Assembly: GCF_019704315.1 (NCBI RefSeq)
Contig: NZ_AP024597.1
Location: 992,001-1,056,000, forward strand
DNA length: 64,000 nt
Reading direction: 5' to 3'
DNA from: Stygiolobus caldivivus
GTDB lineage: Archaea > Thermoproteota > Thermoprotei_A > Sulfolobales > Sulfolobaceae
Shown: piece after piece, positions 6,299 to 64,000 of the stretch
How positions within the stretch are numbered: the stretch's first letter is position 1
Layout: every line of letters starts with the position of its first letter
Notes under the pieces: generated by a model
Database searches by the model: none
What the model saw: only the letters and a program-made list of their open reading frames with translations
What the model was told of the DNA's origin: nothing
Translations under genes and position numbers: made by a program

Positions 6299-6340
6299 AA
6301 GAGTATATGTGATGGATAAACACATGATAAGGCTGATTTC

Positions 6341-13047: not shown

Positions 13048-13285
13048 GTGGAGCTACGATGCGGGGGCTAGTCAGAACTAATATTTAAGCTTTGACAATC
13101 TTGTTATTAGTAGTGGAGCTACGATGCGGGGGCTAGATAACTGATGGGCTGTTACAAGGACACATAGAAGAAATTAGTGGGGTTACGGCACGGGGTGGGG
13201 GTAGGACTAAACGTAGCTACTACTGCATTATCCGCACCGCTTTGCCACAGTTTCAGCACGGGGGGGGGGGGAGGACTAAACACTC
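13048..13285. repeat. decaying CRISPR-like run, period 64-66 bp
   Basis: A 24-bp unit beginning GTGGAGCTACG and ending GGGGGCTAG is exact at 13048 and 13113. It recurs in degenerate form at 13177 (GTGGGGTTACGGCACGGGG) and about 13243, where it is becoming a pure G run. Unit length and period equal those of the live arrays; the sequence does not. Confidence 0.6.
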
Positions 13286-16571: not shown

Positions 16572-19500
16572 CTTTCAATTCCATTGAGGATTAACGAACA
16601 TGCAGAAGTATTTAGATTCCTCAATGAGGGACTTTACTTTCAATTCCATTGAGGATTAACGTGTGAAATAACGTTACCGATAACAGTTACCGTCTTTAAC
16701 CTTTCAATTCCATTGAGGATTAAGTTTCCGTCTCCAGTTCGCCTTTACTTTCTACGTCTTTTTCTTTCAATTCCATTGAGGATTAACGTGGTTTCAAAAA
16801 CTCTTAACGTTATGCAATTATACATTAATCTTTCAATTCCATTGAGGATTAACCTATTTCTTCATCCGTTAATTTGTCTTTATAATAATCAAACTTTCAA
16901 TTCCATTGAGGATTAACTCGTAGCCTCGAATAATTCGAGAGCCTCGTCTTTGTTTATCTTTCAATTCCATTGAGGATTAACGCAACACTTTGGATATTTG
17001 AATGGACTAGAAATATAGCAATAACTTTCAATTCCATTGAGGATTAACTTCGCTGTTGAGGTCATCTATGGCTTCCTGGACGCATTCCTTTCAATTCCAT
17101 TGAGGATTAACCCCTTCAATAACGCTCCCATTACCTTAGCCTTATCCTCCTTTCAATTCCATTGAGGATTAACTTGAACATTTACGTTAGTTTGTACAGA
17201 GTAAGTGTTAATTATGCTTTCAATTCCATTGAGGATTAACGTAGGGAAATAATTTAGCCTTCCACACCTCTACATTAATCCCACTTTCAATTCCATTGAG
17301 GATTAACGAGTTTAAGACCGAGTTACTGAAGATATTGCCCTCACAGTCCGTCTTTCAATTCCATTGAGGATTAACAGGGAAGAAGTTCCTGAAGTGAATA
17401 TATACCCTGTAAAACGTCTTTCAATTCCATTGAGGATTAACATGAATGCATAGGCGTACCATAAATTTATCAATTTTTCTCCTTTCAATTCCATTGAGGA
17501 TTAACTAGATATATTTCCTGATCTGTAAGGACTCTTCATCTTTTAACTTTCAATTCCATTGAGGATTAACTTCTGAAAGAAGCACTTAGGGTAGCTAAGC
17601 ACAAAGTGTTCTTTCAATTCCATTGAGGATTAACGTACCAGTTTAATGGTGACCCGTCAGATAGTTATTATGAACTTTCAATTCCATTGAGGATTAACAG
17701 ACTGACAAAGTATAAGCAATATTGTATAGCTGTCCATGATCTTTCAATTCCATTGAGGATTAACAATTGGTCAGTGCTTTCATTGTAAGCAAAGCGATAG
17801 AGAATCTTTCAATTCCATTGAGGATTAACATTGTCGAGTGTAGGTTTATGAGATATATTGGAAAACTTGTCTTTCAATTCCATTGAGGATTAACGCCGAG
17901 ATAATAGCGTTATTTGACCCAAGCAACGTTTCGGCTTTCAATTCCATTGAGGATTAACAGTAAAGACCCGATAGGCTGGTTTCTAAAGAAATCGGAACAG
18001 CTTTCAATTCCATTGAGGATTAACGAAATCGCAAAGGCGACTAGATCGCACCCTTCCATGACTTTCAATTCCATTGAGGATTAACATATCGATAATCTAC
18101 TTAGGTTACCTAGCATAAAACTTTCTTTCAATTCCATTGAGGATTAACTTGGAGCAATTATTTAAATTCCTTAAGCCTAACGAATTTGTCTTTCAATTCC
18201 ATTGAGGATTAACAAAGAGCTTGCTACTGCAACTAAAAATTTTGAGATCCAAACCTTTCAATTCCATTGAGGATTAACTCACCCTCCTCAGCCTTATGCT
18301 TATGTCCTCTAGGTTCTTTCAATTCCATTGAGGATTAACAACACGTTAGGTGGAGCCGTATACATAATTGCACCGATATTCTTTCAATTCCATTGAGGAT
18401 TAACCTCTAACCTCCTTCCATGTGCTTATTCCTAAATACCATTTCTTTCAATTCCATTGAGGATTAACAGTATCTTAGGTTCACTTAGGGCATATACGGC
18501 AAGTAATGCTTTCAATTCCATTGAGGATTAACTTGGACATGCAGATCCGTGTTGGTGACAAAATCGTGTCCTTTCAATTCCATTGAGGATTAACAACACT
18601 CCTTTCACTTTTTCAGGAGGTATCTGTTTTTTCTTCTTTCAATTCCATTGAGGATTAACCCTATGCCCATTATTGCACCGATTATTAACATAGTATAATC
18701 TTTCAATTCCATTGAGGATTAACAGTGTTATTCAACACGTAATCCGGTAAATCTAATTCGCTTTCAATTCCATTGAGGATTAACTTCACAGACGGGACTA
18801 ACATAAATGTTAGAAGCTTAGAGCACTTTCAATTCCATTGAGGATTAACGTCGATATCAAATATCATGAAACCCTATGAAAGCTATAAGTCATGGCTGAC
18901 TTTCAATTCCATTGAGGATTAACAAACTGGTTTATGCATAGTTATAATTGGGGATAAGAAAAACTTTCAATTCCATTGAGGATTAACTTGGTTCAGGATT
19001 CTTCTGGTATAATATTTGTAAAGCGTTCCTTTCAATTCCATTGAGGATTAACCCTTGCAGCAGTTTCTCTGATACCCTTAGCCGCAACCCTGCTTTCAAT
19101 TCCATTGAGGATTAACTTAATATTGAAAAATTGCAAAATGAAGAATATAAAATCCTTTCAATTCCATTGAGGATTAACTAAGTGCTTCCTTATGACCGGA
19201 ATTTCGGCGATGTTCAAGTCTTTCAATTCCATTGAGGATTAACGAATTGTAAAGCTAGGTGCGGTCGTCGTTGTGGTATTGGTGATGCTTTCAATTCCAT
19301 TGAGGATTAACCAATTTCTAAGAAGTTTGTTGTCTAGAGCTCTATCAAATTTCTTTCAATTCCATTGAGGATTAACTCAGTTATAGATATGAATTTACCG
19401 ACTAGAGAAGAATTGACTTTCAATTCCATTGAGGATTAACGAAAGGCATAGGTCCCTGTAGGCGACTTAGACCATAATTGTCTTTCAATTCCATTGAGGA

Positions 19501-21690
19501 TTAACTAAACTGTTTGCCGTCTTTGGTCGTCCCCGTTATTTCCTTCTTTCAATTCCATTGAGGATTAACACAAACGTGTGTAAGCGAGTATGTGGATGAG
19601 GATATGCACTTTCAATTCCATTGAGGATTAACATGGTACTATTTAAGTACCGTATTGGAACCTTGACGGTACTATACTTTCAATTCCATTGAGGATTAAC
19701 AATGATAGAGCTTTAGTGGAAAAGCTTGTAAAAGAGGACCAGCTTTCAATTCCATTGAGGATTAACACACTACAACAACGGTATATTCCACAACTTTGAT
19801 TACCACTTTCAATTCCATTGAGGATTAACATTTTCTTACATTCCCTTCTTCATATTCTATATCTGGTAACTTTCAATTCCATTGAGGATTAACCAAGGAG
19901 GGTGGTGCGTTAATTACCATAGGAGGGAAAGACTATACTTTCAATTCCATTGAGGATTAACACGATCATGAACTTTCCTTCTTTCTCGTCAAAAACAAGA
20001 TACTTTCAATTCCATTGAGGATTAACATATGATATAGAAAAATTATATATGAGGTTTCTGAATGCTTTCAATTCCATTGAGGATTAACACGAAATACCGG
20101 CGATGGCATACGGTTACGTCACACCGTCTATCTTTCAATTCCATTGAGGATTAACAAACAAGAGTGTTCTACTTATAGGTTATAGTGAAGTAGTACTTTC
20201 AATTCCATTGAGGATTAACCTGCCCCATGTCGTTATAGTAGTACAGTTTGAACGTGTGCACTTTCAATTCCATTGAGGATTAACTATAGGAAAGCTGTTA
20301 AATGCTTTAACTACTTGAAAGGTTTCTTTCAATTCCATTGAGGATTAACACGGGGTGGTGGGTAATGACGGTGTGTGAGGCGGGTTAGTCTTTCAATTCC
20401 ATTGAGGATTAACATTTCTCAAGTATTAAAAGACTCTGTAAACTCGTACGTAGCTTTCAATTCCATTGAGGATTAACGTAGTCGGTGCAGTAACAGTTTC
20501 GATCGTTAGCGGTGTTCTTTCAATTCCATTGAGGATTAACGGAGGGAGTGACGATATACACTCCGTCACCGAATCAGGTCTTTCAATTCCATTGAGGATT
20601 AACCCCTTCTGCCTTCCATAGTTGGTCGAAGGCGGAGAGGGTCTTTCAATTCCATTGAGGATTAACGAAGTTAAACGCGAAAATGATAGCGTCACAGTAT
20701 GTGAGAAACTTTCAATTCCATTGAGGATTAACAGATCTAGCTGGTGATGTATTATATAAATTAGGAGTATGGCTTTCAATTCCATTGAGGATTAACAAGA
20801 AGCCGTAATTGAGAGGGCATTAAAGGCACTGGAAAACTTTCAATTCCATTGAGGATTAACTGATTCTGGGACATGTTCTATTTTCATCAAAAGATCAAGA
20901 CTTTCAATTCCATTGAGGATTAACGAGTAAGGAAGGAAGGGAAGGCTCTTAATCAGTTCATGAGCTTTCAATTCCATTGAGGATTAACTTTTCGCCAAAA
21001 CATGTAACAATAGACAGACAAAAACTTACTTTCAATTCCATTGAGGATTAACTTCTACAGGATTTACACTCCTTCTACACCCGCTGTAGACTTTCAATTC
21101 CATTGAGGATTAACTCCCCGCAAGCTATTGGGTAAAGTTCCTTAGCCGTAATTACCTTTCAATTCCATTGAGGATTAACCTTTTATCGAAACAATTTCGG
21201 GGAGGAGTGTAGTGAAGTACTTTCAATTCCATTGAGGATTAACTTTTTTCTAAGGTAGTGGGAAGATGTTTGAGTTTGTCCTCTTTCAATTCCATTGAGG
21301 ATTAACGATGGCTAAAGACAAAGTGATCTTGAGGGCGAAAATCGTCTTTCAATTCCATTGAGGATTAACCCTTACGTTTGCCCGCTGTGTTTGATACCCT
21401 TTTCATCGTCAGCTTTCAATTCCATTGAGGATTAACTTCGTAGCGTTAGCATTCGCTAGATATGCAGCACTTCTTGCTTTCAATTCCATTGAGGATTAAC
21501 TGCCAAAGAAGTATTGATTTTTTTCCCTTTTTAAGTGATGCTTTCAATTCCATTGAGGATTAACATGTATTGGTTATTCATGATTTCGGTGATAGGTAGT
21601 TTCTTTCAATTCCATTGAGGATTAACATAGTGAAGTTGATGATGAAGCACCTACTGATGCTGATTGCTTTCAATTCCATTGAGGATTAAC
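16572..21690 (-). CRISPR. CRISPR array 2
   Basis: I count about 80 repeats of 24 nt. The repeat starts CTTTCAATTCC, has the centre ATTGAG and ends GATTAAC; the third repeat ends GATTAAG. The period is about 64.5 bp. The leader is on the right, so it is read on the minus strand, away from the adaptation cas genes. Frames reported inside it are read-through of the repeat (LILNGIE). Confidence 0.97.
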
Positions 21691-22000: not shown

Positions 22001-23574
22001 GGTAAACGAGGCTAAACAGCAGTCAAAGGGCTGGTTTACGTAAGACATCATTTCAGTATTTTTTCCAATTCAGGTGATGACAGTGTCGACCTCGGGAAAT
22101 ACAAATCGAAATTGGGCATCAAATTTGAGTAGTACGGGTGGTGGCAATGCCTACCTCAAGGGTAGCGTTTATCAAAAGCATGACACTGGAGCAATGCCCG
22201 AAACTTTTACGTAAACGCTCATACCCGTTTTACGTCTAACCCTTAGGAGTCCCCGATCCGTGGCAGTAAAGTATGCAGGTCCTACCGCGTGAGAGGACAT
22301 ACAAGATAAACTATAACCGATCCGTGGCAGAAAAGTACGCCACAGCTCAAACCCGGTTAGTATAAATCATTTTGCAGTCTGCAGGTTGAACCGTAACATT
22401 ATCACTTGGGCCCAAACCCGGTTAGTATAAATCGTGTATATCATAGTAGGGATTTTACGTAAAACGTTACACGAGCAAAGCACCTACTTCTTAAGAGGGC
22501 GTCTCTAACGCGACCCTAGGTTAGCAGATGAACTCCCGGGAGAGACCACCTTCTCGAGACGGAGTCTTTGACAAGTAAACAGTGGAAAAATACTACCTCA
22601 CATTAGGTCAAATGAAAGTCAACTAACTTCCTGGCCTTTCACGCGCCCTCCTGGGTCGTAACTTTCTACAAAACAAGTTCAGTCAGTGCTCAGATAGTAC
22701 GGTGTGCGTAAAGCATTCCGCATAAACTAAATTATAGACCCGCGACCTACGCTCCTTAACACACTACTTATCAATACTGTCAAATGTATATTTATACTTA
22801 GGCACTCATCAAAGGGTAAACTCCAGTCCGTGTAGGGGGGTAATATGTCCTAAACGCGGGAAGCTGGGTCACACTCAAGAGAGCCCCATCCCCCGTTCGC
22901 ATAAGGTAGTGGGGCCGTGACGGCCTAGTATGGTGAGTAAAAAGCGGACCGCGTTCGCGTAAGGTAGAAATTTGCTGGGCAGTAGTACGTAGGGCTACTT
23001 GCCCATTAGTCCCTGACGAGGACGGTCTGCCAGAACTACGGGCCACTCACCATAACGGCTCCCCCTTTAACCCCTGACAAAGCGTGACGCGGTGACCGTG
23101 ACCTGCAGTACGTTAGTGACAGACCGAATTCACCCCAGACAAAGGGTAACCCGGCTCACCTTATTTGGGCAAATAGGCGGCACATATCAAAAGGCCGATG
23201 CGCCGAAATACCGCCCTAGACGTGTAGGTGAACACCCCGTTTTACGTTAAAGCACCCGACCCCCACCTCTGAGGACATAACACCTTTATCCTGAAGTATA
23301 AAAAAGTGCCGGCACAAGTTTTTACGTAAAACGCCTCATAGAACCGTAGTCGTGGCCCCGTCCCTCTCCTCTGTGTCACAAGTTTTTACGTAAAACGCTT
23401 ACCGCCCGCCGGGTTAAACCGATAAAGGGGGGTGGGGGACAAAACGTCGCTTATCGGGCCATTTGGCACCGTTACTTCCCCTCCTCGGGCGGGAAAGGAA
23501 GGGTGGGACGAAGGAGGAGACAGGGGTTAAAAAGAAAAAAGCCCGTATACCCACGCGACCCCCTTACACTCCCT
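22001..23574. repeat. non-coding zone of CRISPR-period repeat pairs
   Basis: No gene is supported. Imperfect direct repeats of 16-28 bp occur in successive pairs: 22253/22317 (64 bp), 22348/22413 (65), 22894/22952 (58), 23071/23133 (62) and 23313/23377 (64). Each pair has its own consensus. I read the zone as one or more decayed arrays behind the array 2 leader. Confidence 0.55.
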
Positions 23575-24391: not shown

Positions 24392-25297
24392 TCACCACAC
24401 CTTGACGAAACCCCTGAACTTCTCCTCACCCCTCACGGCCGACGCTAACTTCAGGGCGTACGCCCTTATGGCCTGTGAGCACGTCCTCACTTCACCCGCC
24501 TCGTCCTTTACCTTTGAGTTGAGCGCGTTTATCACACTGTCAGCTAATTTTTTCCTGCTTTCTGCGTCCAGTACTCCGTCTTTTACCTTCGGTTTAAACC
24601 CCTCCACGAAAAGCGAGACTAAGGGGAAGTCCACGGAGACGGGCTTGAACATCTCGGAAAAGTCGTAGACTAAGCTTAGCCTGCCGCTCCTGTCCTTGTG
24701 GACGAAACCGGCGTAGGGGTCCAGCCCTACCAGCTGGAGGGCCCTGTGGACGTTAGAGTACAGTATCGCGTACGCGTAGTTAAAGGACACGTTGTACCCG
24801 TCGGTGCTCTCTGGGTCTCTATTCTTCATGGGTATGATTCTGCTGAGGGCGTGCCAGTAATACCTAGCTGCTGTGGGCTCGTCATCTGTCTTACCCTCTA
24901 TCTGCTTGTAGTCGTCACCTTGTACCCCCAGTTTTTTGAACCAGAACTTCACGTGGTTGGCCTGGTTCCTGACCTTAGCCTTTATTATCTCGCGCGGGAT
25001 TTCGCTGTCCCCCCTGATGATGGCGAGGTACTGCCCCTTCCTGGTCTCCACTGTCTTTATGGGCTCCGACTGGAAGACCCTCCCGTAAGGCAACCCTCTG
25101 GAGTCGAGGAAGACCACGTCTATCCCGTGGTCTACGGCGAGCCTGATGGCCTTAGACGTTATGGTGACCCCCGAAGTCATTACCAGTATCTGGTCTACCT
25201 CTGCAGGGGAGATGTTCCTGGCCTTGCCCCCCTTCTTCGCCAACACGAAAGTGTTACCCTTTACGGAAAGCCTGACACCGTAGTCCGCTATCTCCAA
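24392..25297 (-). CDS. cas1: Cas1 integrase
   Basis: The protein has 301 residues from TTG; no better start is seen in frame. The metal-binding residues are E140 (DDEPTAARYYW), H200 (GFVHKDRSG) and D212 (VYDFSEMFKP), all intact. It inserts prespacers at the leader-repeat junction. It lies 77 nt downstream of csa1. The five arrays have related leaders, so it could serve them all. Confidence 0.96.
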   Translation of the reverse strand: MEIADYGVRLSVKGNTFVLAKKGGKARNISPAEVDQILVMTSGVTITSKAIRLAVDHGIDVVFLDSRGLPYGRVFQSEPIKTVETRKGQYLAIIRGDSEIPREIIKAKVRNQANHVKFWFKKLGVQGDDYKQIEGKTDDEPTAARYYWHALSRIIPMKNRDPESTDGYNVSFNYAYAILYSNVHRALQLVGLDPYAGFVHKDRSGRLSLVYDFSEMFKPVSVDFPLVSLFVEGFKPKVKDGVLDAESRKKLADSVINALNSKVKDEAGEVRTCSQAIRAYALKLASAVRGEEKFRGFVKVW

Positions 25298-31007: not shown

Positions 31008-37221
<6,214 letters not shown>

Positions 37222-37783
37222 GGTGAAAGTGTGAGGGTCGAAGTGCCGGACAAGGTGTATTTCCTTAGGACTTTGATCTGGAAATTGAGTAATAACTTTT
37301 CTTCTTTTCTCTATCATTTCGCCCCATATTGGACTTTGATCTGGAAATTGAGGGCGTCAGAGTAAAAGCCGAAACCGACACACGTCTTGACGGAGAGGTG
37401 TAACCGTGACCGGGGGGGGGGGGATTTTCGACACGGTACCACATAACCCTTCCGACGGACCTTGGGCTGTACTGCTCCTATGGAGTGTCTACTTTCGTAA
37501 AGATGTCCGGTACTAAGTTCCTCTAAAAGGGGTGGAGCCAATACGGCACAGCGACGTTTTGGGGTGACACCCCCGCCGGTGCCACCTTCAAACCGGCGTA
37601 GGCGTCAGACCCCTTACCCCGAGGCGTTAATACGAGCGGTTGACCGCTAACCGCGTGTGGGGCGCCGTTTACACGGAGCGGCGGCTTCAGGGCGACGACG
37701 TGTGCGTACCGCTACGCTGTGACGGGCTGAAAAAGCCTTGCACGTCTGTGCCCAACGCCTACCCCTACCTTCCAGCCGTTGGC
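37222..37783. other. non-coding stretch
   Basis: It holds a CRISPR-period repeat (37268/37331) and a run of 12 G at 37412-37423. No gene is seen. Confidence 0.4.
37268..37352 (+). repeat. CRISPR-period direct repeat
   Basis: A 22-bp sequence starting GGACTTTGATC and ending GGAAATTGAG is exact at 37268 and 37331, 63 bp apart. It can be aligned to the array 3 repeat (GTTAATCC...GGAATTGAAAG), so it may be two remnants of that array's distal end. Confidence 0.6.
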
Positions 37784-38062
37784 CTACCCGTTGTCGAGGA
37801 CTTGGCGTACCCCTTTTAGCATCCTCACGTACATCTTTTCGTACTTGTCTACTTTCAACACCACCGCCCGGCTGAACTTCAAGAAGTCTTTGTCCGTGGT
37901 GATTACTACCCCGTTGACCATTAAGGCGTAAGCCATTATGTGGTGGTCGTACCTATACGGGGCCATAACGGGCCTAAAGCCGAGGTACTCTAACCTCTTC
38001 CTGGACCAGTTGTAAAACCCCCTCAACGGCAGGTCGAAAATGAGGTAGGCCCCGTCCCCCAT
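37784..38062 (-). CDS. PIN-like / Mut7-C-type domain protein, possibly truncated
   Basis: The protein has 92 residues. DHHIMAYALMVNGVVITTDKDFLKFSRAVVLK is the second half of a PIN-like RNase fold (acidic D, then TTDKDF). The first acidic strand expected at an N-terminus (DTN or DAN) is missing, and an in-frame TAG lies just upstream. It is either a short DUF5615-like protein or a broken VapC-type toxin. No antitoxin gene is adjacent. Confidence 0.6.
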   Translation of the reverse strand: MGDGAYLIFDLPLRGFYNWSRKRLEYLGFRPVMAPYRYDHHIMAYALMVNGVVITTDKDFLKFSRAVVLKVDKYEKMYVRMLKGVRQVLDNG

Positions 38063-38919
38063 CCCGTAATCCTATCTAGGGCACACATTATTATCTTTTG
38101 CGGGCCTTAACGGGCGCCGCATCTGATTCCCGTTTGGCTGACACGGCCCCGTGGAGTGACAGCCTACCATGACCGGTGCCGAGGTTTTCAGTAAGACGGG
38201 GGTACCTTTGGGGCGTCTCGTAGCTACCCCGCCCCCTAAGGCGCCGGGTGGGGGGGAGAAGTAGGGGCCACAGCCCCGACGCGCAGCTGTGTATCACGAC
38301 AGTCGTGGGCCGGGAGGACTAGTGCGTAAACGCCTACACGGGTGCCCGATGGGGGAAACCCCTTGTTTAACGGCAGCCCTGATAGGCCCTTACGCCGACA
38401 CCGCTCAAATACCGCGGACGCAGTTACGTAGTCCGAGGTCGGGGGTACGAAGAGCTTGGCCACGACGGAGCAAACGTGCCGGTAGGACGGGCCCCGCTTA
38501 CCGGGGTTTAGGTAAAAGCCTCACGAGTTCCCCCTACTCCTACTAACTTAATAGTCACGGCACCAAGCCTCAGGTAGGGGCTACTCAAGACCGACTACGA
38601 GTACCGCACCGACAAAGGGCGTGTCTCGGACTTTAAACGGGCGTTACGCTGAAAAAGCCGGGTCTACTCCACCCGGTTCGGGGGTTCCGGCAGTCCTCGT
38701 GCTGGCCTTCTCTCACCGTGGCAGCACACACGCGAGTACCGAAGGCGTTTAGGGGTGATAGGCCCCTTTCGCAGTCGGGTGGGGGTGTAACGTGAGTTAT
38801 GTGGCCCCACGGTCGGGGGCCCCTCGTGAGGGGTGTGCGACACGGTCAAGCCGCATGACTTGGGCTCATTAGGGCCCCCTAGCGTCTTTAGGACCTCAGG
38901 CTTTAAAATTTTTAGCATT
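38063..38919. other. GC-rich non-coding stretch
   Basis: Several overlapping frames exist but none has coding character or a promoter. No repeat stands out before 38920. Confidence 0.4.
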
Positions 38920-39240
38920 CCCCTAACAAGAACGGTATTAGTGGAGGCGTTCTCGTATACAGCCTTTACTTCCTCCGGTGCTCCCCTAACGGGTACGGTA
39001 TTCTAATGCTCGTGTCACAAACCATTCTTAATAATCTAGAGGCGCCCCCTAACGGTGACGGTGTTACTTGTCCCGTGGGCTCTATATAAGCCGTAGTGCA
39101 CTCCCCTAACTGGAGTAGTGTTATTTGCAGTGACGAAGAGGGCACAAATAGGAATTGAAGGCAATCCACTAACTGAAACCGCGCGACGTTTACGGTACTA
39201 AAACCTCAGGCTTAAAGTTTTTTGCACTCCCCCTTACACC
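38920..39240. repeat. six-unit relic repeat run, period 57-63 bp
   Basis: The core CCCCTAAC or a near variant starts at 38920, 38983, 39046, 39103, 39166 (CCACTAAC) and 39229 (CCCCTTAC). Four of the five steps are exactly 63 bp. Similarity continues to the right (ACGGTATT, ACGGTGTT, TAGTGTTATT). The intervening sequences are unrelated, as in a CRISPR array. It lies upstream of the array 4 leader. Confidence 0.7.
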
Positions 39241-39490
39241 TAATAGCTTCCCCAAAAGGCTACGTCGTTTACCGCCGTGTTCGTCCACGCGTTTTCCTAT
39301 GACTATCCAGGGAGTTACCCGGTCTACAACACCTGCCTTTTTCTGGGCCCTTTCAAGGTAGGTGAAGCCCCCTGAGGGTTACTCTGCCTGAAGGCTCGTC
39401 CTTACTCTCTATCAAGTCAGCCTTTGTGTTGAGCCTTGGGCCTCGTCTAGCGTCGTCTTCTGTAGGGCGGAACTCAGCCTGACCCAAGTT
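39241..39490. other. non-coding stretch
   Basis: No gene is seen. TTTTCCTATGAC near 39291 may be one more decayed unit of the 63-bp run. Confidence 0.3.
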
Positions 39491-39750
39491 TAGTCTATTT
39501 TTCGTATTTCTTCTGTGTGGTAATAAGTATTTCGCCCTCATAATTCCCGGTTTTCAGCGGGAATTACTTTCAATTTGTCAGTGAGCAATAAAGTTCTTTA
39601 GGTGGAGTACGTAAGACGTAAATCTCTTTATCAAACTCCCGAAATTTCTTGGGAGTGATTAAAATTCAGTAATGATAAAACTGTCAAGTATAGCAAAGCT
39701 TATATAAGAGAAGAACGAAATTAAGGATAGAAATAGTATAAAAACATTCA
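39491..39750 (+). promoter_or_regulatory. leader of array 4
   Basis: About 260 bp, closely matching the leaders of arrays 1, 2 and 5: stem AATTCCCG/CGGGAATT, GTCAGTGAG, ACTCCCGAAATTTC, TATA box TTATATAAG at 39700-39708 and AGTATAAAAACATTCA before the first repeat. Confidence 0.85.
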
Positions 39751-42700
39751 GTTAATCCCTCATGGAATTGAAAGAAGCATATAGAGATGTTTAAGAAAGA
39801 GGAGTAAGGTCTGAAGTTAATCCCTCATGGAATTGAAAGTATTCTCAGTGTCATAATACCCATACTCCTTACAGTATTCTAGTTAATCCCTCATGGAATT
39901 GAAAGCCCACACTTACGATTTATTGACAAAGGTACAAAAGGGTCTGTTAATCCCTCATGGAATTGAAAGGAGATAGTGCAAAGCGTCTTAGAAATACGTT
40001 GCCCAGGTTAATCCCTCATGGAATTGAAAGAATCCCTGCGTCGTCGAAGATTATGAGCGGGATCCTATAGTGTTAATCCCTCATGGAATTGAAAGAAAGT
40101 TCTGTGTAACCTCTTGTTTCAACACTCCCCCTAGTTAATCCCTCATGGAATTGAAAGTCTTTTAGTTTTCCTAACTTTTAGCAAGAGAATTAGGAGAAAG
40201 TTAATCCCTCATGGAATTGAAAGTTCAATTGAACATAAAGAAGGGCTCGGGCCGGGACTTGAAGTTAATCCCTCATGGAATTGAAAGTTTATCGATATAC
40301 CTCTCCTTTTTCTTCACGTTCTTAGCCTTGTTAATCCCTCATGGAATTGAAAGTATATGGTGAGAGAGATGAAAAAGCTGAGTTTGGTCAAGTTAATCCC
40401 TCATGGAATTGAAAGCTACAGCGATACTGTAGCCGTAAAAGAAGGCCGTAACAGAGCCGTTAATCCCTCATGGAATTGAAAGTAAGGAGCTACTTCTGCC
40501 CAGCTAATTACTGGAATATAAGTTAATCCCTCATGGAATTGAAAGGTAATACATGTTCTGCTGGAATTAACACTTTCCTGTGGATGGTTAATCCCTCATG
40601 GAATTGAAAGCACTTGCCTTGACAACCGATGATTTCCATTAGGACGTTGGTTAATCCCTCATGGAATTGAAAGACTGGTTTAAATGTAAGTATAGGCTGA
40701 TTTTTATTATTTCTCGTTAATCCCTCATGGAATTGAAAGACAAGTGTACCTGACCGGCATTGCAGTCACCTCTTTGACGTTAATCCCTCATGGAATTGAA
40801 AGCATGATAGACTACATCAGCAGTGTATTCGAAGCCTCTGAGTTAATCCCTCATGGAATTGAAAGTAAAGATTATCTCTTTGAGTGTTTGTTTATTGTCC
40901 TCGCTAGTTAATCCCTCATGGAATTGAAAGGAATAAATTAAAAGAAATACAAAAATTAAAAACGCGTACTCTTGTTAATCCCTCATGGAATTGAAAGATT
41001 TGTCTGCCATAAACTGTTCATAATGTTCCACAATGTTAATCCCTCATGGAATTGAAAGTACATTGGGTCAAGTATGTACGCTAACGGAGTCCCTACCTGT
41101 TAATCCCTCATGGAATTGAAAGTAATTCTATACTGGTGACTTTAGAGGTTATTTCTATTATCCGTTAATCCCTCATGGAATTGAAAGTTCTCGAAGAGTA
41201 AAAGGAGTGTACCGTAGTCGTAGTAAAGTTAATCCCTCATGGAATTGAAAGCACCTTATCCGATATCTATGAACTAGTCCTAGCACTCAGGTTAATCCCT
41301 CATGGAATTGAAAGTTTTGCTACGATGTAGATAATTAGTGCTACTATCCACGCCCAGTTAATCCCTCATGGAATTGAAAGTACCAGGTTTTTGCTAGGCC
41401 GTCTAACTACTATAACGCCACGTTAATCCCTCATGGAATTGAAAGTCACAATAGTAATAATAAGGAATAACACAATCATCCATTCTCCGTTAATCCCTCA
41501 TGGAATTGAAAGTACAGCTCTTCTGTTTTAGACAATGGAGTTTATTGTGTTAATCCCTCATGGAATTGAAAGCTTTAGATGACTGTGGAATTAGATTTAA
41601 GACCGCTTTAAGCTCTTGTTAATCCCTCATGGAATTGAAAGAAATAGGAAATACCCCTACATAATGCCAATAGCCTGGAACTTTCGTTAATCCCTCATGG
41701 AATTGAAAGATACCGATGATCATATCAACATCACCCTGACTCATGATATGTTAATCCCTCATGGAATTGAAAGTAACTGCCGATATCTCTGCTACAATCT
41801 CGTCATCTTGAAGGTTAATCCCTCATGGAATTGAAAGTCCGATGCCCGAATTTCCTTTGGTAATTTATGCTGTTCTAGTTAATCCCTCATGGAATTGAAA
41901 GGGAAATTTGTGAGAAGATGGGGTTAAGAAATGACTGACATGTTAATCCCTCATGGAATTGAAAGCAGAAGAGTCTTTTCTCCAAACCCGGGCATACTCA
42001 TACTTAAGTTAATCCCTCATGGAATTGAAAGCTTTTTCCCTTATCTTTACGTACAAATCTTTTGGGAGATTTGTGTTAATCCCTCATGGAATTGAAAGTT
42101 GTATAATGCATCCTGGATAGGAGGGAAGTACCCAGAAGTTAATCCCTCATGGAATTGAAAGCTATGACCGATTGCGTTGACTAAGTTATCAGTCCTTATC
42201 TCGTGTTAATCCCTCATGGAATTGAAAGGAACTCATTGAAAGAGGGCGAAGTAGAGATGTAACCGTTAAGTTAATCCCTCATGGAATTGAAAGTCAGATA
42301 AAGCGTTAAATAAAACGTTCTCAAAAATACGTGTTAATCCCTCATGGAATTGAAAGCTTCCCTATAACACGCTTTAGGTAGTAAGACCAGTTCTTCCAGT
42401 TAATCCCTCATGGAATTGAAAGCTCGTCCGCCGGTGCCTCGCCCCTCATGAACTTGTAGTATGCGTTAATCCCTCATGGAATTGAAAGAGGGAACTATGA
42501 GGTGAGATGAAATGAAAGAGGTTAAGCTATGTTAATCCCTCATGGAATTGAAAGATAGTATTTGTGCTGTTCATGATACTGTCGTACTCGAAGAGTTAAT
42601 CCCTCATGGAATTGAAAGCATTTTCCGCCCACCCTAGCAAGATACTCTTTAAACGAGTTAATCCCTCATGGAATTGAAAGTACATGTACGAGTTTTGCAG

Positions 42701-44545
42701 AGTAGAATTGTATACGAGTTAATCCCTCATGGAATTGAAAGTCTTGAGACATAAACCATGCCCTTTTTCGCATATGCCAAAGTTAATCCCTCATGGAATT
42801 GAAAGGAAAGTTTGGTAGTCAGAGACCCTAAATATCTGGGTAAGTTAATCCCTCATGGAATTGAAAGAGGCTACATTTCGAAAGAAAAATCGGAACTAGC
42901 AAAAGCGAGTTAATCCCTCATGGAATTGAAAGCTCTTTTCGTAAAGGTGGGTGTGTTACACAGGAGGGGTTAATCCCTCATGGAATTGAAAGCTCCTCCC
43001 GCGGTTTTCCTAAAATTGTCCTGAGTTTCACGTTAATCCCTCATGGAATTGAAAGTCTTCCCTACCTTGATTACCCCGCTATCACTAAGTGTTACGTTAA
43101 TCCCTCATGGAATTGAAAGGTGTACTCGTTTTATGTAGCTGAAGTTAAAGCTTATGCGAAGTTAATCCCTCATGGAATTGAAAGACTTGAGCTAAATATA
43201 TGTATGTTAATGCATAAAGTAATAGGGTTAATCCCTCATGGAATTGAAAGACTTGAGCTAAATATATGTATGTTAATGCATAAAGTAATAGGGTTAATCC
43301 CTCATGGAATTGAAAGAATATTAGAAAACTGAACGTTACAAGTCAGATAATCTCACGTTAATCCCTCATGGAATTGAAAGAAAAATGCTAGACCAGCTAT
43401 AGCACCGCCCATTGCAGCGTTAATCCCTCATGGAATTGAAAGTTGGAAAGACAAAGAGAGGATTAAACAAGACATTGAAATAATGTTAATCCCTCATGGA
43501 ATTGAAAGTAGTCCTTGATGCGTTGGACTTCTCTCGTAGCAAGCCTGTAGTTAATCCCTCATGGAATTGAAAGTTGCTATAAAGCATCGACCTCGGCGTA
43601 CCCATTACCAATTCGCGTTAATCCCTCATGGAATTGAAAGATACTCAAACACAAATTTGTATCTTCTCTTATTTGTCCCCGTGTTAATCCCTCATGGAAT
43701 TGAAAGCTAGTAATAGTATGATTAAAGATCTCAATACTATTGAATAGTTAATCCCTCATGGAATTGAAAGATATCTTTGCACAAACTGGAAATTTCAGTG
43801 ATGAAGTTTATGTTAATCCCTCATGGAATTGAAAGTTATGTGGGTGAGTAATAAATTTAATAAGTATATCGCTAAGTTAATCCCTCATGGAATTGAAAGT
43901 CATCCCAGCTCTCTCTAGGTGTATATAACCACTCTGGTATGTTAATCCCTCATGGAATTGAAAGTCAAACTCCTCAAAGGTGAGCTGAATGGCGGGGAAG
44001 AGGAGTTAATCCCTCATGGAATTGAAAGGACATTCATATAAGCGTGTTCATATAGCCACTTAGCCTTCTCTGTTAATCCCTCATGGAATTGAAAGCATGA
44101 TAACAAGGACGTGGAACGCGGGAACCATAGAAATAAGTTAATCCCTCATGGAATTGAAAGTTTACTGTTCTTGCCGAAATAATAATCTATAACACCAGCG
44201 TTAATCCCTCATGGAATTGAAAGACAAGTAAATCCCAACTGTTAGTGAACACTATAATGTCTACGTTAATCCCTCATGGAATTGAAAGTTGATATCTTAA
44301 ATACTAAGTTATGTACTCTGTACTGTTTTGCGTTAATCCCTCATGGAATTGAAAGTGTCATAAACGGTATGGGTAGAGAGGACTTAGGTTCGTTTGTTAA
44401 TCCCTCATGGAATTGAAAGACACATTGCGTTATATTGTACTATTTTTATATTTGTATATATGTTAATCCTTCCCGGAATTGAAAGTAACTGTACAGTGCG
44501 CGGAATATGTGTGGTGTCTGTTATGTTAACCCTTAGAATTTAAAG
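39751..44545 (+). CRISPR. CRISPR array 4
   Basis: I count about 73 intact repeats (39751-44419), starting GTTAATCC and ending GGAATTGAAAG, with the same repeat as array 1 (ATGAGG centre on the other strand). Two degenerate repeats follow: 44462-44485 (centre GGGAAG on the other strand) and 44525-44545 (21 nt). The leader is on the left. One spacer starting ACTTGAGC is tandemly duplicated near 43185 and 43251. Confidence 0.97.
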
Positions 44546-45279: not shown

Positions 45280-46953
45280 TTGAGGGACTTCATAGAGGAG
45301 ATGATAAACGCGTGGGGCCGACACAAGGGCAAGCGGGTGGCCCTCGACTCGGAAAGGCTAAACGACCAGCTCGCGCTGGCACGGAGGGTCTACGAGGAGG
45401 CCTCGGCCGCCAACCAAGGCGTATTGTTCATGTTGAGAGCCCCTACGGGTTTCGGTAAGACCGAAGTCCTCTTCGCCCCGTTCCTCTACCAGTTCGTGGA
45501 GGGGCAGTGGTTCGCACCGAGGATGTACTTGGTGGAACCGGTAAACGCGTTACTTAAACAGATGGAAGAGAGGGCTAAGGTGTACTCACAATTGGTGGCA
45601 CCGAGCCCTACCGTGGGTAGCGACTACGGCGACACACTAAAGAAGACGTACCTGTACACAGCCGTCATAACCCTCACCACAGTGGACAGCGCATTTTACG
45701 GTTTCACGGCTAAGAGAGTGGTGACGTGGAGGGAGAGGGACTATGAGACCGGGAGGTACTCGATGCCTGCGGGCCTCCTCACGGGCTCGTACCTCGTCTT
45801 CGACGAGGCCCACCTGATACAAGACCAAGTGTTCTTGGGGCCCAGGGTGATGTCTAAAGTGATATGTAGTATCGTAGCGGCGGGCGGGTTAGTGGTCTTC
45901 TCTTCGGCCACGCTACCGAGTATAACGGCGGGGCTGTTTAAAGAGGAGTGCGATAAGTACGGCGCGAAGGTAATAGACCTCCCTTTCCCGCGGGCGAAAA
46001 AGGAAGCCCGCGTAAGTTACGTAAACAGGCCCATATCCGAGGCAGAGTGCGGAGAGGGGTCTGCGATATTTGTAAACACGGTCGAGAGGGCGATAAAGAT
46101 GAAGGAGAGGTGCAAAGGCGCGGTGTTATTACACTCGTTGATGAGGAAAGACGATAAGGAGAGGGCGTTAAGGGGACTGGAGGAGGGTAAGGCCCTCATA
46201 GCCACGCAGGCCGCAGAAGTGGGGATCGACTACGACTTCAAGAGGGTCATAACGGAGCTGGCGCCGATAGACAGCCTAATACAGAGGTTCGGGAGGGTGA
46301 GGAAGGACGTGATAGACGCTGAAGTATATGAGGTGGAAAACAGCCTACCCTATGACGACGACGTGGTCAACAGGAGCAGGGACGTACTGCAGTCGGTCAG
46401 TACTATAAGTTCAAGTGACGTAGGCAAACTGGTGGACGAGGTGTACGACGAAAGTATAGTGGGGAAGCTGTCGGAGTTAGGTGACACGTTTTACTTGAGT
46501 ACGGTGGAGTACTTGCAGGGGCTTACGCTTTTCTCATACCCCCCTGAAGATACCCCTTACCTAAAGCCCTCGTACTACGTGACGCTGTACTTACTCAGCG
46601 CGGCGGAGTACGAAAAAATAAGGGACCTCCACGAGGGGGGTAAAGCCGACGCCGTCGAAGAGGTCAGCCGCATAATGGCCAACGCTTCGGTCAAATACCC
46701 CATTTCGTACATTGACGACTATAATAGGAAGAGGTTGGAGTCGTTCATAGAAAAGGGCGACGTATATAACGGTGCAGTATACAGCAAAGACTTCCTCAAG
46801 AAGGTGAAGGGGATAACCCACGAGTTGATAATAGTGGTAGACGGACAGACGTATTCCCCGGACGAGGGGTTTAAAGGGTTAATAGGGGCGGTGGGGGGAC
46901 AAAAAGGGCGGAGCGAAAAGCGGAGCCGGAAGAAAGGGAGGGGGAAGAAATGA
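45280..46953 (+). CDS. cas3': Cas3' helicase
   Basis: The protein has 557 residues from TTG (ATG at 45301 is an alternative). It is a superfamily 2 helicase: Walker A APTGFGKT (54-61), DEAH (175-178), SAT (209-211), and QAAEVGIDYDFKRV followed by LIQRFGRVRK as motifs V-VI. No HD domain is fused; it is encoded by the next gene, as usual in type I-A. It unwinds target DNA for the Cas3'' nuclease. The C-terminus is a basic tail rich in R, K and G. It overlaps cas3'' by 4 nt (ATGA). Confidence 0.95.
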   Translation: MRDFIEEMINAWGRHKGKRVALDSERLNDQLALARRVYEEASAANQGVLFMLRAPTGFGKTEVLFAPFLYQFVEGQWFAPRMYLVEPVNALLKQMEERAKVYSQLVAPSPTVGSDYGDTLKKTYLYTAVITLTTVDSAFYGFTAKRVVTWRERDYETGRYSMPAGLLTGSYLVFDEAHLIQDQVFLGPRVMSKVICSIVAAGGLVVFSSATLPSITAGLFKEECDKYGAKVIDLPFPRAKKEARVSYVNRPISEAECGEGSAIFVNTVERAIKMKERCKGAVLLHSLMRKDDKERALRGLEEGKALIATQAAEVGIDYDFKRVITELAPIDSLIQRFGRVRKDVIDAEVYEVENSLPYDDDVVNRSRDVLQSVSTISSSDVGKLVDEVYDESIVGKLSELGDTFYLSTVEYLQGLTLFSYPPEDTPYLKPSYYVTLYLLSAAEYEKIRDLHEGGKADAVEEVSRIMANASVKYPISYIDDYNRKRLESFIEKGDVYNGAVYSKDFLKKVKGITHELIIVVDGQTYSPDEGFKGLIGAVGGQKGRSEKRSRKKGRGKK

Positions 46954-47666
46954 CGAAGCCCTGTGCGTATTTTGAGGGCGGGGAGTGTAAGGAGAGTTAC
47001 CTCACCCACATACGCTATATGCTGGACGTCTGGGAAAGGATAAAGGGGTACTACGTCAAGACGTTGGACCGGGTGGCGGGGAAGGGGTCTGAACACTACC
47101 TGAAGTTGGCGTTCCTGGCCCACGACGCGGGTAAACTCCTGAAAGCGTATACCCGCGACAAGCGTAAGTTCAGGCACGAGTTGGTCGGCGCGTACGTGTT
47201 GTACAAGATGGTAGGGGGAGGGGCGGGCGACGTCTTCGCTACCGCCGTACTCCTCCACCACGAGAGCATAATACTCAGTGTCTACGCAGGGCAGTACGGT
47301 GAGAGGATAATACCGCTGTCCACGGTACGGGCGGTACTGGAGGACTTTAAAGGCCTGCTGACGCCTTATGCTTCGCTCAAAGACGACGAGGCGTACGGCA
47401 AAGTGGGGATGGAAAAAGAGATAGACGAGATGGAGGGGATCCTCAGCTCACTGAAAGCAGACGACGTGTACGACGTGGTTAAGTCGCTGGTAGTCGGGGC
47501 GAGTTCAGGGAAGGACAGCTTGGTCTTTAGGAACAAGGTGAGCGCGGTACTGCACGTCTTAGTGTTGGTGGACTCTGTGGCGGCTAACACCAGCAGGGCT
47601 GACAGTAGGGATGAGGGGACGTGGGTGACAAAAGCGGCTAAGGTCGCAGAGCCGGGTGTGTGGTGA
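46950..47666 (+). CDS. cas3'': Cas3'' HD nuclease
   Basis: The protein has 238 residues with the HD metal site: H20, H58-D59 (LAHDAGK), H76 (RHELVG) and H103-H104 (LLHHE). The HD nuclease degrades the target strand during I-A interference together with Cas3'. Its start overlaps the cas3' stop and its stop overlaps the cas8a2 start (TGATG), so the three are coupled. Confidence 0.93.
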   Translation: MTKPCAYFEGGECKESYLTHIRYMLDVWERIKGYYVKTLDRVAGKGSEHYLKLAFLAHDAGKLLKAYTRDKRKFRHELVGAYVLYKMVGGGAGDVFATAVLLHHESIILSVYAGQYGERIIPLSTVRAVLEDFKGLLTPYASLKDDEAYGKVGMEKEIDEMEGILSSLKADDVYDVVKSLVVGASSGKDSLVFRNKVSAVLHVLVLVDSVAANTSRADSRDEGTWVTKAAKVAEPGVW

Positions 47667-48712
47667 TGGCGGAGATCTATACCCCCGGGCACGGTATAGT
47701 CACAGACTCCTTAATTATGCACGGTATAGTTAAGCTATACGACGTCCGAAAGGTGGAGAGGGTGGGGGAGAGGTTCAAGCTCATGGGTAGTTTCGAGACC
47801 CCCGATAGCGGTACGCTTTCCCTACTGGAGGAAGAGCTCAGGATTTACTCTAAACACCCGGAGGTCCTCAGCTCTTCGTCTGTACTCGGGAAGGTCACGG
47901 ACTCTAACGTAAACGTCAGCGTGACCCCCAAATGGTTAGGTAAGCTCTCTGACGCGTTGACCGAAATGGAGGGGGACATCACAGACGTCTATACTGTAGA
48001 CCACAAGGACAAGTTAAAGGAGGGGAGGAAAGGGAAGCAGGAATATTTACTGTACCTCCCTTTGTCGTTCGTCTACGGGAAGTTTTCACAGTCAGACTAC
48101 TCGGTGACCGCTAAGGACTATTCGGTGTGCGGTCACTGTTTCGCGCTGTCTAATATAGGGCTAATTTACGGTACCGCGGTGGTGAGGTATTCGGGTAAGG
48201 ACAAGACTTCCGTGACCTTGATGACTATAATACCTGACGAGGAAATGGACAGGGCTGACCTCCTGTTGGCCCAGAGGTTCGTACAAGGTAAGTCCGTAAG
48301 CTTATACACTGAGCTTACGTTAAAGTCCGTTGTCCTTTACGTGTTGTCGGTGGGCGAGACGCTTTTTTCCTTCGGGGAGCACTCACCTCAGGTGCTGGTC
48401 TGGAGGTTAGAGCGGTCCGGGAACTTCATGAGGTCTTTACAGCCCATGGCCCTCAGGCTCGGCGGGGTGCTAAAAAAGGTAGCAGAGATCAAGGCAGATT
48501 ACCCCTACTTCACAAACATAGTGCTCAAGCTGTCCCGGAGCGAGGACGGGGCGGTGGTCTTGGACAGACTGGCTGACATAATACTTTTTAACGGGGACCC
48601 GTACCCGGCCTTGAGGCAACTCTCCTTATTCCTGAGGAAGAACAAAGACGAGGTGGGGGAGCTAACTGTCAAGGACTTACCGAACTTCGCGAAAATACTC
48701 ACTAAGCAGTGA
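47666..48712 (+). CDS. cas8a2: Cas8a2 (Csa4), large subunit of the I-A effector
   Basis: I chose ATG at 47666, overlapping the cas3'' stop, giving 348 residues; two GTG codons lie just upstream. A CGHC pair (about C155 and C158) is the remaining half of the zinc-binding site typical of Csa4. Cas8a recognises the PAM and recruits Cas3. It ends the first half of the interference set; cas7 and cas5 lie beyond an inverted ATPase pair. Confidence 0.85.
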   Translation: MAEIYTPGHGIVTDSLIMHGIVKLYDVRKVERVGERFKLMGSFETPDSGTLSLLEEELRIYSKHPEVLSSSSVLGKVTDSNVNVSVTPKWLGKLSDALTEMEGDITDVYTVDHKDKLKEGRKGKQEYLLYLPLSFVYGKFSQSDYSVTAKDYSVCGHCFALSNIGLIYGTAVVRYSGKDKTSVTLMTIIPDEEMDRADLLLAQRFVQGKSVSLYTELTLKSVVLYVLSVGETLFSFGEHSPQVLVWRLERSGNFMRSLQPMALRLGGVLKKVAEIKADYPYFTNIVLKLSRSEDGAVVLDRLADIILFNGDPYPALRQLSLFLRKNKDEVGELTVKDLPNFAKILTKQ

Positions 48713-54546: not shown

Positions 54547-54913
54547 GCCCCCACCTCTCATAAGACCGTAGTCGTGGCCCGTCCCTGTCCACTGTAAAGT
54601 CTACGGGGAAGTCGACTGCTGTAAAGGCGACCTGCAGGGCTTTGTAAAACGCCCTCCCCGTGTGAGGTCCTGGGGCAGTCCCGCTCCCTGACCTAAGGCT
54701 TGCTGGCGAAGGCCTATGTAGTCCCCACCCCCGCACTGGGGGCTTTGCCCATAACCTACCCGAAATTTTAATATAAGCCCCTATCGTCTCCTCTGAGGGG
54801 CCCACGTAAAGGTACCTTAACTTAGGCTTAGGTCTGTCGGTATAATAGACGAAATACTCCCCCTTGTCCCCTCGCGTGGAGGTGTTACCCGTATGAATGA
54901 CTTCACGTGTCAT
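54518..54913 (-). CDS. possible small protein upstream of the HEPN/MNT pair
   Basis: The frame has 131 codons. ATG at 54913 has AAGGAG 2 nt upstream and TTTTTAAG about 28 bp upstream, so the start looks real. The first 58 residues (EYFVYYTDRPKPKLRYLYVG) look coding; the middle is low-complexity Gly/Pro/Ser and may be a frameshifted part. It overlaps the HEPN start by 29 nt. No family recognised. It could be a decayed gene. Confidence 0.35.
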   Translation of the reverse strand: MTREVIHTGNTSTRGDKGEYFVYYTDRPKPKLRYLYVGPSEETIGAYIKISGRLWAKPPVRGWGLHRPSPASLRSGSGTAPGPHTGRAFYKALQVAFTAVDFPVDFTVDRDGPRLRSYERWGHEKGTGRRV

Positions 54914-60396: not shown

Positions 60397-62114
60397 GATA
60401 AACAACTTAAAACACATAGTTTAAAAGTATTTTCGCAATACCCCTTCGAAGACTTTAAATTTGCATTATCTATAAAGCATGGCTCATTCTTTTAGAACTA
60501 TTTCCAAAAGGTTGACCGGTCATAATACTTTATCTCCCACTTTGAAAAGTGTTAAAAGGATAAAGTAATTTTAAAAGAATATAATATATATAAAAACTGT
60601 TCTAAATATAAATCAATTATTAACCCGTCACCTTTACGCCTTTTCACGCTAACACTTATTGAAAGTCCTTACAGCCGGGTATTACCCTAAATATTTATGT
60701 AAATACTTATACATGACCTTATGTTAAATTACCAAAAAACCCTTATTTCCAGTCGCGGAGTACGTAACAGCACACACATGACCGGTAAAAACACGTAGAC
60801 GCGACGGCCTTACGTAAAACGTCGCACGTGCTATGTATTAATATCGCTTAATGCGGGCTAACTGCTTCACCCGGTCACGGTTAGACAAACGGGGACCGTA
60901 AAGGCCGTGAGAGACCCCTCGGTGTAACCGGTGGGCCACATTTAGAGTTACCCTAAAAAGTATGACGCGGCTTCTTCTCGTCAATTCTTACTAAAAATTA
61001 TAAAACACCCCGCTTACACGTCTAACTGTGAGGCGGGGATAATCACGGGAAAACTACCGCTCGACGACTTTGAAGTATTAGAGAGCCTCACCCCGGTCAG
61101 ATATTATTAGCCTTCTTCTCTTTTTTCTTTATTTTCTCCCCCTTCTCTTTTTCCGCAACGAGATCATCCCTTACGGATAAGCGTTTACCCGTGGCGTGAC
61201 CCACCCTAACTTCTGCTCCCGCCACGGGGCACCCCTAACGGGCCGTACACCGTCACCTCAGATTTGTCGGGCCAACCGGGAGGTGGGGAGAAGGAAGATG
61301 ATAAGTCTACATACGGTAGAAGAAGTCCATCCCGAGGTCTACCATGTCGGAGAAGGAAGATGACATATCCACCGTTTTTGTTTTATTAACCTCGTCTATA
61401 TGGGGGCGGAGAGGAGGGAGACACTTACCTTCCCACCCTTACTTACACCACCCCCTATCCCCTGAGCATGGCCCGTCACTTGTAGGGAGGTTATCTAAGT
61501 ACCCAAGTAATACTCTACAGACGTGACCATGGTGATGAAGGTCATATTGAAGAGCGTTTAAGGGAGTTCAAAAGTTACATAAAGTTGTTACGGTCTGGGG
61601 GGAATGATTATCACACTATGGGATATCACACTAAATGTATTCAAAAGTAGTCAAACACGTTACACCGTGAAAAAACGTAAAGCCACGGGACGATAACTTA
61701 GTTTATGGGGGGGAGGGGGACAACGCCGCTAGTTCAACGACACGGGTGCCGTGTTATAGCGTGGACGCGGGACTGCTTAATAGACGCAGTATTTATCAGC
61801 GGCGTGGTAGTTAGGAAGTAGGATCCGTTAATCGGAGAGTGTCAACACCGGTCATAGGTAAAGACACACGGGTTCTTGTGCCGAGGCGTTAGGCTATGAA
61901 GGGGTCATCAGGGGGAGGGAAAGCCCAAGTGCCTCGATCGTGTCGAGACGTGAGGGGCTGAAGGGACTTAGGAGGACGGACTAGTGGCCGCGTCTCCGAG
62001 GCATAGAATAGAAACCGACGCCGATAACAGCGTTCTCGGTTCACTGTGTCTTAATTGTGCAAAGGCGTTGGAAGTGGTTTGCTCCTGATACAATGGCCCT
62101 CTAAGCGTAACAAG
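60397..62114. other. long non-coding stretch
   Basis: No gene is supported. GAGAAGGAAGATGA occurs at 61288 and 61350 (62 bp apart). A G-rich run is near 61706. The part before about 60700 is AT-rich; the rest is GC-richer. Confidence 0.45.
61288..61363. repeat. CRISPR-period direct repeat
   Basis: A 14-bp exact repeat at 61288 and 61350, 62 bp apart, lies upstream of the array 5 leader, as the runs at 30292 and 38920 do for arrays 3 and 4. Confidence 0.4.
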
Positions 62115-62378: not shown

Positions 62379-64000
62379 GTTAATCCTTCATGGAATTGAA
62401 AGTGTAGCGATGCTAGGCGGCTGAATCGAAGCGAAACTCATGTTAATCCTTCATGGAATTGAAAGTTATATTCAGGTATCTGGTCCATGGCCTAAAGGCG
62501 AGACGTTAATCCTTCATGGAATTGAAAGGTATTTCTCCCTCTGGACTAAATAGGAGGTATCTCTTTTGGTTAATCCTTCATGGAATTGAAAGTCTCTTTG
62601 CCCAGGGCGTCCCTCAGGAACACGTAGTTGGTTAATCCTTCATGGAATTGAAAGTTCACTCTGACCCTGAGAGGCACTACTTGGAGACTCATTGTTAATC
62701 CTTCATGGAATTGAAAGTGAATTGAGAGATATTCGTATATGAGCTCTTGTACATAAAGTTAATCCTTCATGGAATTGAAAGCTTCATCGACCGGTGCCGT
62801 AAATTGGATTAACGTATCGTTGTTAATCCTTCATGGAATTGAAAGTTAGCCTGTTTAATTCTTCCCAACTAAAGGAGGTCTTAAGTTAATCCTTCATGGA
62901 ATTGAAAGTAAAAATGCTTAAGCAAACTGTGAAACAGCCCAGCTCGCTTTGTTAATCCTTCATGGAATTGAAAGAGTAAGGAGACGGAAAGAAGGAGAGA
63001 AGAGAAAAGAGTGTTAATCCTTCATGGAATTGAAAGTAATCTTGTTCTCTATTGATTCGAAAGGTCTTATGTTAATAGTTAATCCTTCATGGAATTGAAA
63101 GTCAAAGGTGGAGATGGGTAGCATTTTGTAGTAAAACTTAGTTAATCCTTCATGGAATTGAAAGCGATGCCCTGGTCGAACTTGCCCTGTATGCCTTTAT
63201 TATTTGTTAATCCTTCATGGAATTGAAAGACGGGGAGAGTGAGGCTCTGCCCACCAAACACGCGGGCGGACAGTTAATCCTTCATGGAATTGAAAGTATA
63301 ATCGTCTACTAATGCCCTGAGTCTGTTCCTAAGAGCTAGTTAATCCTTCATGGAATTGAAAGTATTTTATTGGTTGTTTGGCCTTTTTCGGCTTTCTCAA
63401 CCTTACGTTAATCCTTCATGGAATTGAAAGTCTAATCGTTAAAACGCTGGTCTACCACCCGGAACTGCGTTAATCCTTCATGGAATTGAAAGAATAACAT
63501 ATTCGAGTGCATGGCGAAGCTAGTCGTGTACGATGTTAATCCTTCATGGAATTGAAAGGATAATATTCTGGATGTCATTACCTATAACAAACTGACCTGT
63601 GTTAATCCTTCATGGAATTGAAAGATCAGTCCACCTAAAACGCCACCAATTATGCTGTACGTATGTTAATCCTTCATGGAATTGAAAGTTTCACAAAAGA
63701 CCCCACACGGATCAACATTCCGTGGTTAATCCTTCATGGAATTGAAAGAGGATACCAGTTCGAATGGTATGCAGGAGACACAGGTGATATTGTTAATCCT
63801 TCATGGAATTGAAAGAACTCTCTATTAACGTCAAAATTGCTTTTTTTATCATAAAGTTGTTAATCCTTCATGGAATTGAAAGGTCTTAACAACATCTTTA
63901 TAACGTTCACCGCTTCTCATTTATTAGGTTAATCCTTCATGGAATTGAAAGTAGAATTAGAAGAGAAGACCATAGGGACATATTACTTCACGTTAATCCT
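62379..64000 (+). CRISPR. CRISPR array 5 (cut by the window end)
   Basis: 26 repeats are seen, the last only in part (63992-64000). They start GTTAATCC and end GGAATTGAAAG; on the opposite strand the centre reads ATGAAG. The leader is on the left. Confidence 0.96.

Follow-up and report, generated by a model that had tools for sequence, protein, structure and literature searches.

How did a regular ladder of degenerate repeats come to lie between two live CRISPR arrays of Stygiolobus sp. KN-1, whose genome is available as a hybrid short- and long-read assembly (PMC8483694)? The window, i.e. the entire stretch of 64,000 nucleotides that was analysed, corresponds to G000:C1:992001-1056000 of one 2,958,410-base contig. 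Its live arrays use two closely related 24-bp repeats, and the ladder, here called the relic, occupies the 2.8-kb gap that separates two of them (Table 1). The gap starts with a decayed CRISPR ring-nuclease gene and contains one short ORF with a weak match to DUF5615, while the remainder is GC-rich and without recognisable genes. No matches were returned by Rfam and tRNA scans.

The surroundings of the gap have peculiarities of their own. At 36911-37100 the last repeat of the array that ends at 36934 abuts the remaining coding end of the ring-nuclease (Cas_APE2256) gene, as if the two had been fused through a deletion. Homopolymers of C or G, 10-12 bases long, occur once in a live spacer (36236) and twice in the decayed gene (37108 and 37411) and reflect either real slippage or assembly error. 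Within the live array on the other side of the gap, a 66-bp unit of spacer and repeat is present at 43161-43317 in perfect tandem copies, which represent a recent internal duplication.

Table 1. Features of the window with their coordinates; fractions give identical positions over the length stated
Feature	Coordinates	Strand	Remarks
Live array, 46 units	6207-9138	-	
Live array, 80 units	16572-21690	-	
Live array, 92 units	31008-36934		
Live array, 74 units	39751-44485		
Live array, 25 units	62379-63951		
Leader of live array starting 39751	39512-39750	+	conserved copies beside other arrays of the genome and in relatives
cas1, presumed integrase gene	24392-25297	-	PF01867 match at G000:C1:1016542-1017291 plus ORF
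Cas3', Cas3'', Cas8a2/Csa4	45280-48712		
R1, relic repeat (24-bp register, true length maybe 20-24)	38915-38938	+	GCATTCCCCTAACAAGAACGGTAT
S1, relic filler, 39 bp	38939-38977	+	no full-length match in own genome; 19-mer absent from IMG/VR
R2, relic repeat	38978-39001	+	GTGCTCCCCTAACGGGTACGGTAT; 18/24 to R1
S2, relic filler, 39 bp	39002-39040	+	copy of own elp3 (36/39); CCT adjoins source
R3, relic repeat	39041-39064	+	GGCGCCCCCTAACGGTGACGGTGT
S3, relic filler, 33 bp	39065-39097	+	short unit, spacing 57
R4, relic repeat	39098-39121	+	GCACTCCCCTAACTGGAGTAGTGT
S4, relic filler, 39 bp	39122-39160	+	no full-length match in own genome
R5, relic repeat, strongly decayed	39161-39184	+	GCAATCCACTAACTGAAACCGCGC
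S5, relic filler	39185-39223	+	like flank upstream of R1
R6, possible relic repeat, marginal	39224-39247	+	GCACTCCCCCTTACACCTAATAGC
Ectopic insertion, perfect 24-bp duplication, 41-bp insert (13072-13112)	13048-13136	.	insert is exact copy of G000:C1:919580-919620
Ectopic insertion, 24-bp duplication 23/24, 40-bp insert	23311-23398	.	insert is diverged copy of window 54557-54595
Ectopic insertion, 24-bp duplication 23/24, 39-bp insert (37290-37328)	37266-37352	.	seven relatives with uninterrupted site
Candidate insertion, 24-bp duplication 23/24, 41-bp insert	10351-10439	.	
Candidate insertion, 24-bp duplication 23/24, 41-bp insert	22345-22433	.	
Candidate insertion, 24-bp duplication 22/24, 40-bp insert	22253-22340	.	
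Candidate insertion, 24-bp duplication 22/24, 37-bp insert	12692-12776	.	
Candidate insertion, older, 20/24, 35-bp insert	14782-14864	.	
Candidate insertion, older, 20/24, 38-bp insert	61287-61372	.	

The ladder and its fillers

The ladder units at 38920-39240 recur with spacings of 63, 63, 57, 63 and 63. Four units are clear, with CCCCTAAC exact at 38920, 38983, 39046 and 39103, the fifth is weak (CCACTAAC at 39166) and the sixth, CCCCCTTAC from 39229, is marginal. Autocorrelation of 38900-39260, a check proposed in the earlier note, peaks at lag 63, followed by lags 120 (63+57) and 126. The best score of a 20-mer in three copies within 37500-39520 is 34, at 38920 with a period of 63, and none of 500 dinucleotide shuffles reaches this value (mean 23, maximum 27). 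The six-unit ladder claimed in the earlier note is thus real, with one interval of 57 instead of 63.

When up to three mismatches are allowed, CCCCTAACNNNNACGGTRTT occurs six times in the window against 1.5 expected, and four of these occurrences lie in the relic. The conserved unit is longer than 8 bp and spans approximately 20-24 bp (for example GTGCTCCCCTAACGGGTACGGTAT), which may also have been the repeat length at birth, when the copies were presumably identical. Today the relic repeats are 70-75% alike over 24 bp, i.e. 25-30% different, and beyond R1 and R2 they resemble each other even less, so that the relic does not have the near-identical repeats of a canonical array. It does have the regular spacing with unrelated spacers, one unit being 57 bp. 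The fillers are mutually unrelated with a single exception, a 36-bp stretch at 75% shared by the upstream flank of R1 and the filler before unit 6. The pattern of two relic repeats was found once in GTDB genomes, on a Synechococcus contig, and this match was taken as chance.

One of the fillers has a recognisable source. Comparison of 37500-39500 with the own genome gives one significant match elsewhere, between 39001-39042 and a site inside the Elp3 gene (39/42), and the copy fills the interval from R2 to R3 in the manner of a captured spacer. The three differences between S2 and the own elp3 are all transitions. The relatives with an alignable elp3 site carry 6-14 differences from the own elp3, and in six of the seven the gene has exactly three more differences from S2 than from the own elp3. 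Judging from this comparison, the three differences would most simply have arisen in the relic, with the elp3 of this lineage as the source. Sulfolobus type I-A systems are known for a CCN motif, with which the CCT preceding the elp3 source site is compatible. The source has a C-rich flank on the other strand too, and S2 may have been captured in either orientation.

The constant period, the unrelated fillers and the elp3 fragment between two repeats support the suggestion that a CRISPR-type remnant is present here. The other four of the five relic fillers have no significant match elsewhere in the own genome; S1 and an ATPase gene agree at 19/20 positions, but this likeness has no extension and was taken as chance. 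Exact 19-23-mers of S1, S4 and two nearby inserts are absent from IMG/VR, and 37100-39520 has no match in phage and plasmid collections.

Insertion footprints around the CRISPR loci

The relic is not the only place in the window where a duplicated sequence surrounds a fragment of spacer size. In the 43 kb of non-array window DNA, pairs of 24-mers alike at 20 or more of 24 positions occur nine times at a lag of 57-70 and never at the other lags between 30 and 149; the range of 57-70 was set after the first window hits had been seen, and the relatives constitute the independent test. Direct repeats that are exact over 13 bp or more, at lags of 20-499, likewise number nine in this DNA, and eight of the nine have a lag of 60-65. 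One of these eight, the direct repeat at 3971-4045 (14 bp, lag 60), has the look of a coding repeat and was left out of the footprint count.

At the nine neighbouring sites with 24-mer pairs a duplication of repeat length encloses an insert that matches the live spacers in length (40.6 ± 1.8 bp, n=305), and each footprint has its own, different and locally derived 24-bp repeat. The identity of the duplications grades from 24/24 at 13048 down to 18/24 for units 1 and 2 of the relic, the kind of series that events of different age should leave. The insertion at 37266, for which the uninterrupted site is preserved in relatives, sits 1.6 kb from the relic in the decayed ring-nuclease/aspartic-protease gene junction. 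Captured DNA is recognised in S2, which derives from elp3, in the 13048 insert, which derives from 919580-919620, a site 85 kb away, and in the 23311 insert, which derives from window position 54557. Self-DNA accounts for three of the 16 inserts searched in KN-1, and the live spacers (n=305) have no full-length self-match in the sampled 18% of the KN-1 genome.

Away from the locus, 299 kb of the same genome contain one pair of at least 20/24 at lag 57-70. Close to CRISPR loci (867 kb, 13 genomes) there are 29 pairs of at least 22/24 at this lag, at least one of which is a canonical repeat to be dropped (L154:4310), and the pooled pairs have a median duplication length of 25 bp. The far stretches (998 kb, 7 genomes) contain no such pair, these controls being sampled stretches of about 0.3 Mb from KN-1 and 0.7 Mb from six relatives and not whole genomes. 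The near and far samples are not matched for gene density or strength of selection, and weak selection on DNA near CRISPR loci could keep scars that are purged elsewhere and in this way account for part of the clustering.

Inserts traced to the host's own chromosome were also found in four relatives, one each (G004, G027, G003 and G021). In G004, three identical 24-bp repeats (ACTTCATTAAGAGTGAAAAAAGAG) that are unlike the live repeat enclose inserts of 41 and 43 bp (L098:12855-13010, G004:C1:2662855), of which one copies the own genome at 2359695 and the other has part of the live repeat at its end. This site looks like a young two-spacer stray array, and its three identical copies with two inserts show that one ectopic site can receive two insertions. 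In KN-1 itself, about 40 kb outside the window, L079:19458 (G000:C1:1095458) contains a 23/24 duplication at lag 60 that is followed by a weaker third copy. Duplications of 22-26 bp located 58-66 bp apart were seen near CRISPR loci in L127 (G020), L141-L143 (G021), L147 (G003), L151 (G009) and L159 (G027). When read in one orientation, many such duplications in relatives begin with GTT, as the live repeats do, which hints that certain targets are preferred.

Origin of the relic

The clustering of spacer-sized fragments and repeat-length duplications near CRISPR loci points to off-target integration by Cas1-Cas2. Stray events of this kind are to be expected, since Csa3a is reported to restrain the non-specific integration by Cas1 in Sulfolobus islandicus (PMC9456107). 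Given the neighbouring footprints and the twice-used site of G004, the stretch 38915-39247 is probably what decay has left of a small ectopic ('neo-CRISPR') array built by the resident Cas1-Cas2. It is proposed that the integrase would have placed fragments of about 39 bp into a non-array site, that the local target sequence would have been duplicated each time and thereby have become a 'repeat', and that several successive insertions at one site would have produced a small array, with at least one captured fragment coming from the cell's own elp3. The units would then have drifted by mutation, and the relic is probably inert today. With at least five units at one site the relic exceeds the other events, which have one insert in the window and two in G004. 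An uninterrupted site is known for 37266 and not for the relic, at whose place insertion is deduced; among 60 relatives, neither a counterpart of the relic nor its uninterrupted site aligns.

The earlier note had proposed that the repeat might come from another repeat type or an older system. It is conceivable, though rather unlikely, that a once-ordinary array with a separate repeat family lost its leader and cas genes and survives as the relic, its decay perhaps helped by the self-targeting elp3 spacer. The several regularly spaced units, the presence of a self-spacer and a decay that increases to the right, resembling that of an array towards its trailer, all agree with such an origin, and the relic consensus is somewhat like a repeat present in G003, GTTGAACCCATAACGGGATTGAA. 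However, the likeness to Sulfolobaceae repeats is not significant, as 32 of 300 shuffled consensuses perform as well against approximately 30 repeats of relatives. The relic repeat was also correctly described as unlike the live family, for R1-R5 share 9-11/24 positions with the live repeats, which is not significant when 12% of background positions reach 9. Upstream of R1 there is no copy of the known leader, and this flank has no match elsewhere in the own genome that could represent a different one, though a decayed leader of another kind may lie there. A second CRISPR family is moreover not needed where many single insertions with local repeats lie nearby; the different repeats at the nine sites fit off-target activity of the resident integrase better, and an older system or another repeat type, possible as it is, is not the best-supported origin.

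A second alternative, a minus-strand coding repeat that has decayed, appears improbable. In this reading N-T-V-x-V-R-G returns at intervals of 21 codons (19 in one case), and two of the fillers give KPEVL. Every spacing is divisible by three, third codon positions of the minus-strand frame account for many of the differences between units and 38800-38979 has a slightly positive coding score (+0.09), but the other codon scores are around zero or below, compared with +0.28 for the nearby PIN-like ORF. Stops break the frame, most other fillers have no common protein pattern and the elp3 piece, located in another frame, is out of keeping with a coding repeat. No match was found in Pfam and no convincing relatives in 32 genomes. 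The frames, the coding potential and the lack of relatives therefore do not support a satellite or coding repeat with conserved fillers, which the earlier note had set against its own reading.

CreA/CreR-type systems comprise regulatory crRNA-like RNAs with degenerate repeats and a guide-like sequence that matches the host. The relic resembles them in its degenerate repeats and host-matching guide-like sequence but differs in its full-length match within a gene body, its several units and its lack of conservation. A functional mini-array whose crRNA-like transcript guides the type I-A effector to elp3, or acts on it as antisense, is highly improbable: the whole length of S2 matches elp3, with CCT adjoining the source, the plus-strand transcript of S2 would be antisense to the elp3 mRNA and a TATA-like stretch can be seen by eye before unit 1, yet the match lies in the gene interior rather than the promoter, S2 has drifted while elp3 is conserved, the relic repeats lack the live 3' handle ATTGAAAG, one of the five fillers has a target and no counterpart occurs in the 60 relatives.

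Relation to known systems and significance

With its unit size the relic, read as a decayed ectopic array, approaches the canonical type I-A arrays of the Sulfolobales, represented by the live arrays of the window with units of 60-68 bp, 24-bp repeats and spacers of about 40 bp, but it differs from them in its unrelated degenerate repeat, few units, self-derived filler and lack of a recognised leader. Self-targeting spacers in degraded arrays have been reviewed (PMC6990116). The relic shares with these the host fragment between repeats, here with three mismatches to its source, but lies outside a canonical array, and the other self-copies of the region are also located at ectopic sites.

A close parallel is offered by loci where spacer-sized fragments lie between repeat-length duplications outside an array. 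Off-target integration and such 'neo-CRISPR' loci were reportedly described by Nivala, Shipman and Church in Nat Microbiol in 2018, with natural cases proposed in Sulfolobus islandicus and Yersinia pestis. Most of what is known of off-target spacer integration comes from laboratory set-ups, and proposed natural cases are few. The present locus is distinguished by events of graded age packed densely around the CRISPR loci, by a decayed array of several units, by inserts from the host chromosome and by a clustering that extends to related genera. While off-target integration as such is already known, the clustering near CRISPR loci and the content of self-DNA look new.

One natural genome thus displays fresh, middle-aged and fossil events together, and the twelve relatives of the first sample show the same clustering near CRISPR loci. 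This renders two questions testable from sequence now, namely which DNA the integrase samples before self-targeting spacers are removed by selection, and whether misplaced integrations are the starting point of new arrays. As a tentative generalisation, the integrase of the Sulfolobaceae may regularly insert fragments, some of them from the host chromosome, around the CRISPR loci; these sites could serve as a harmless sink for self-spacers and occasionally grow into arrays with new repeats, of which 38915-39247 would be a fossil. If this holds true, misplaced integration would be a natural route for the birth of CRISPR arrays.
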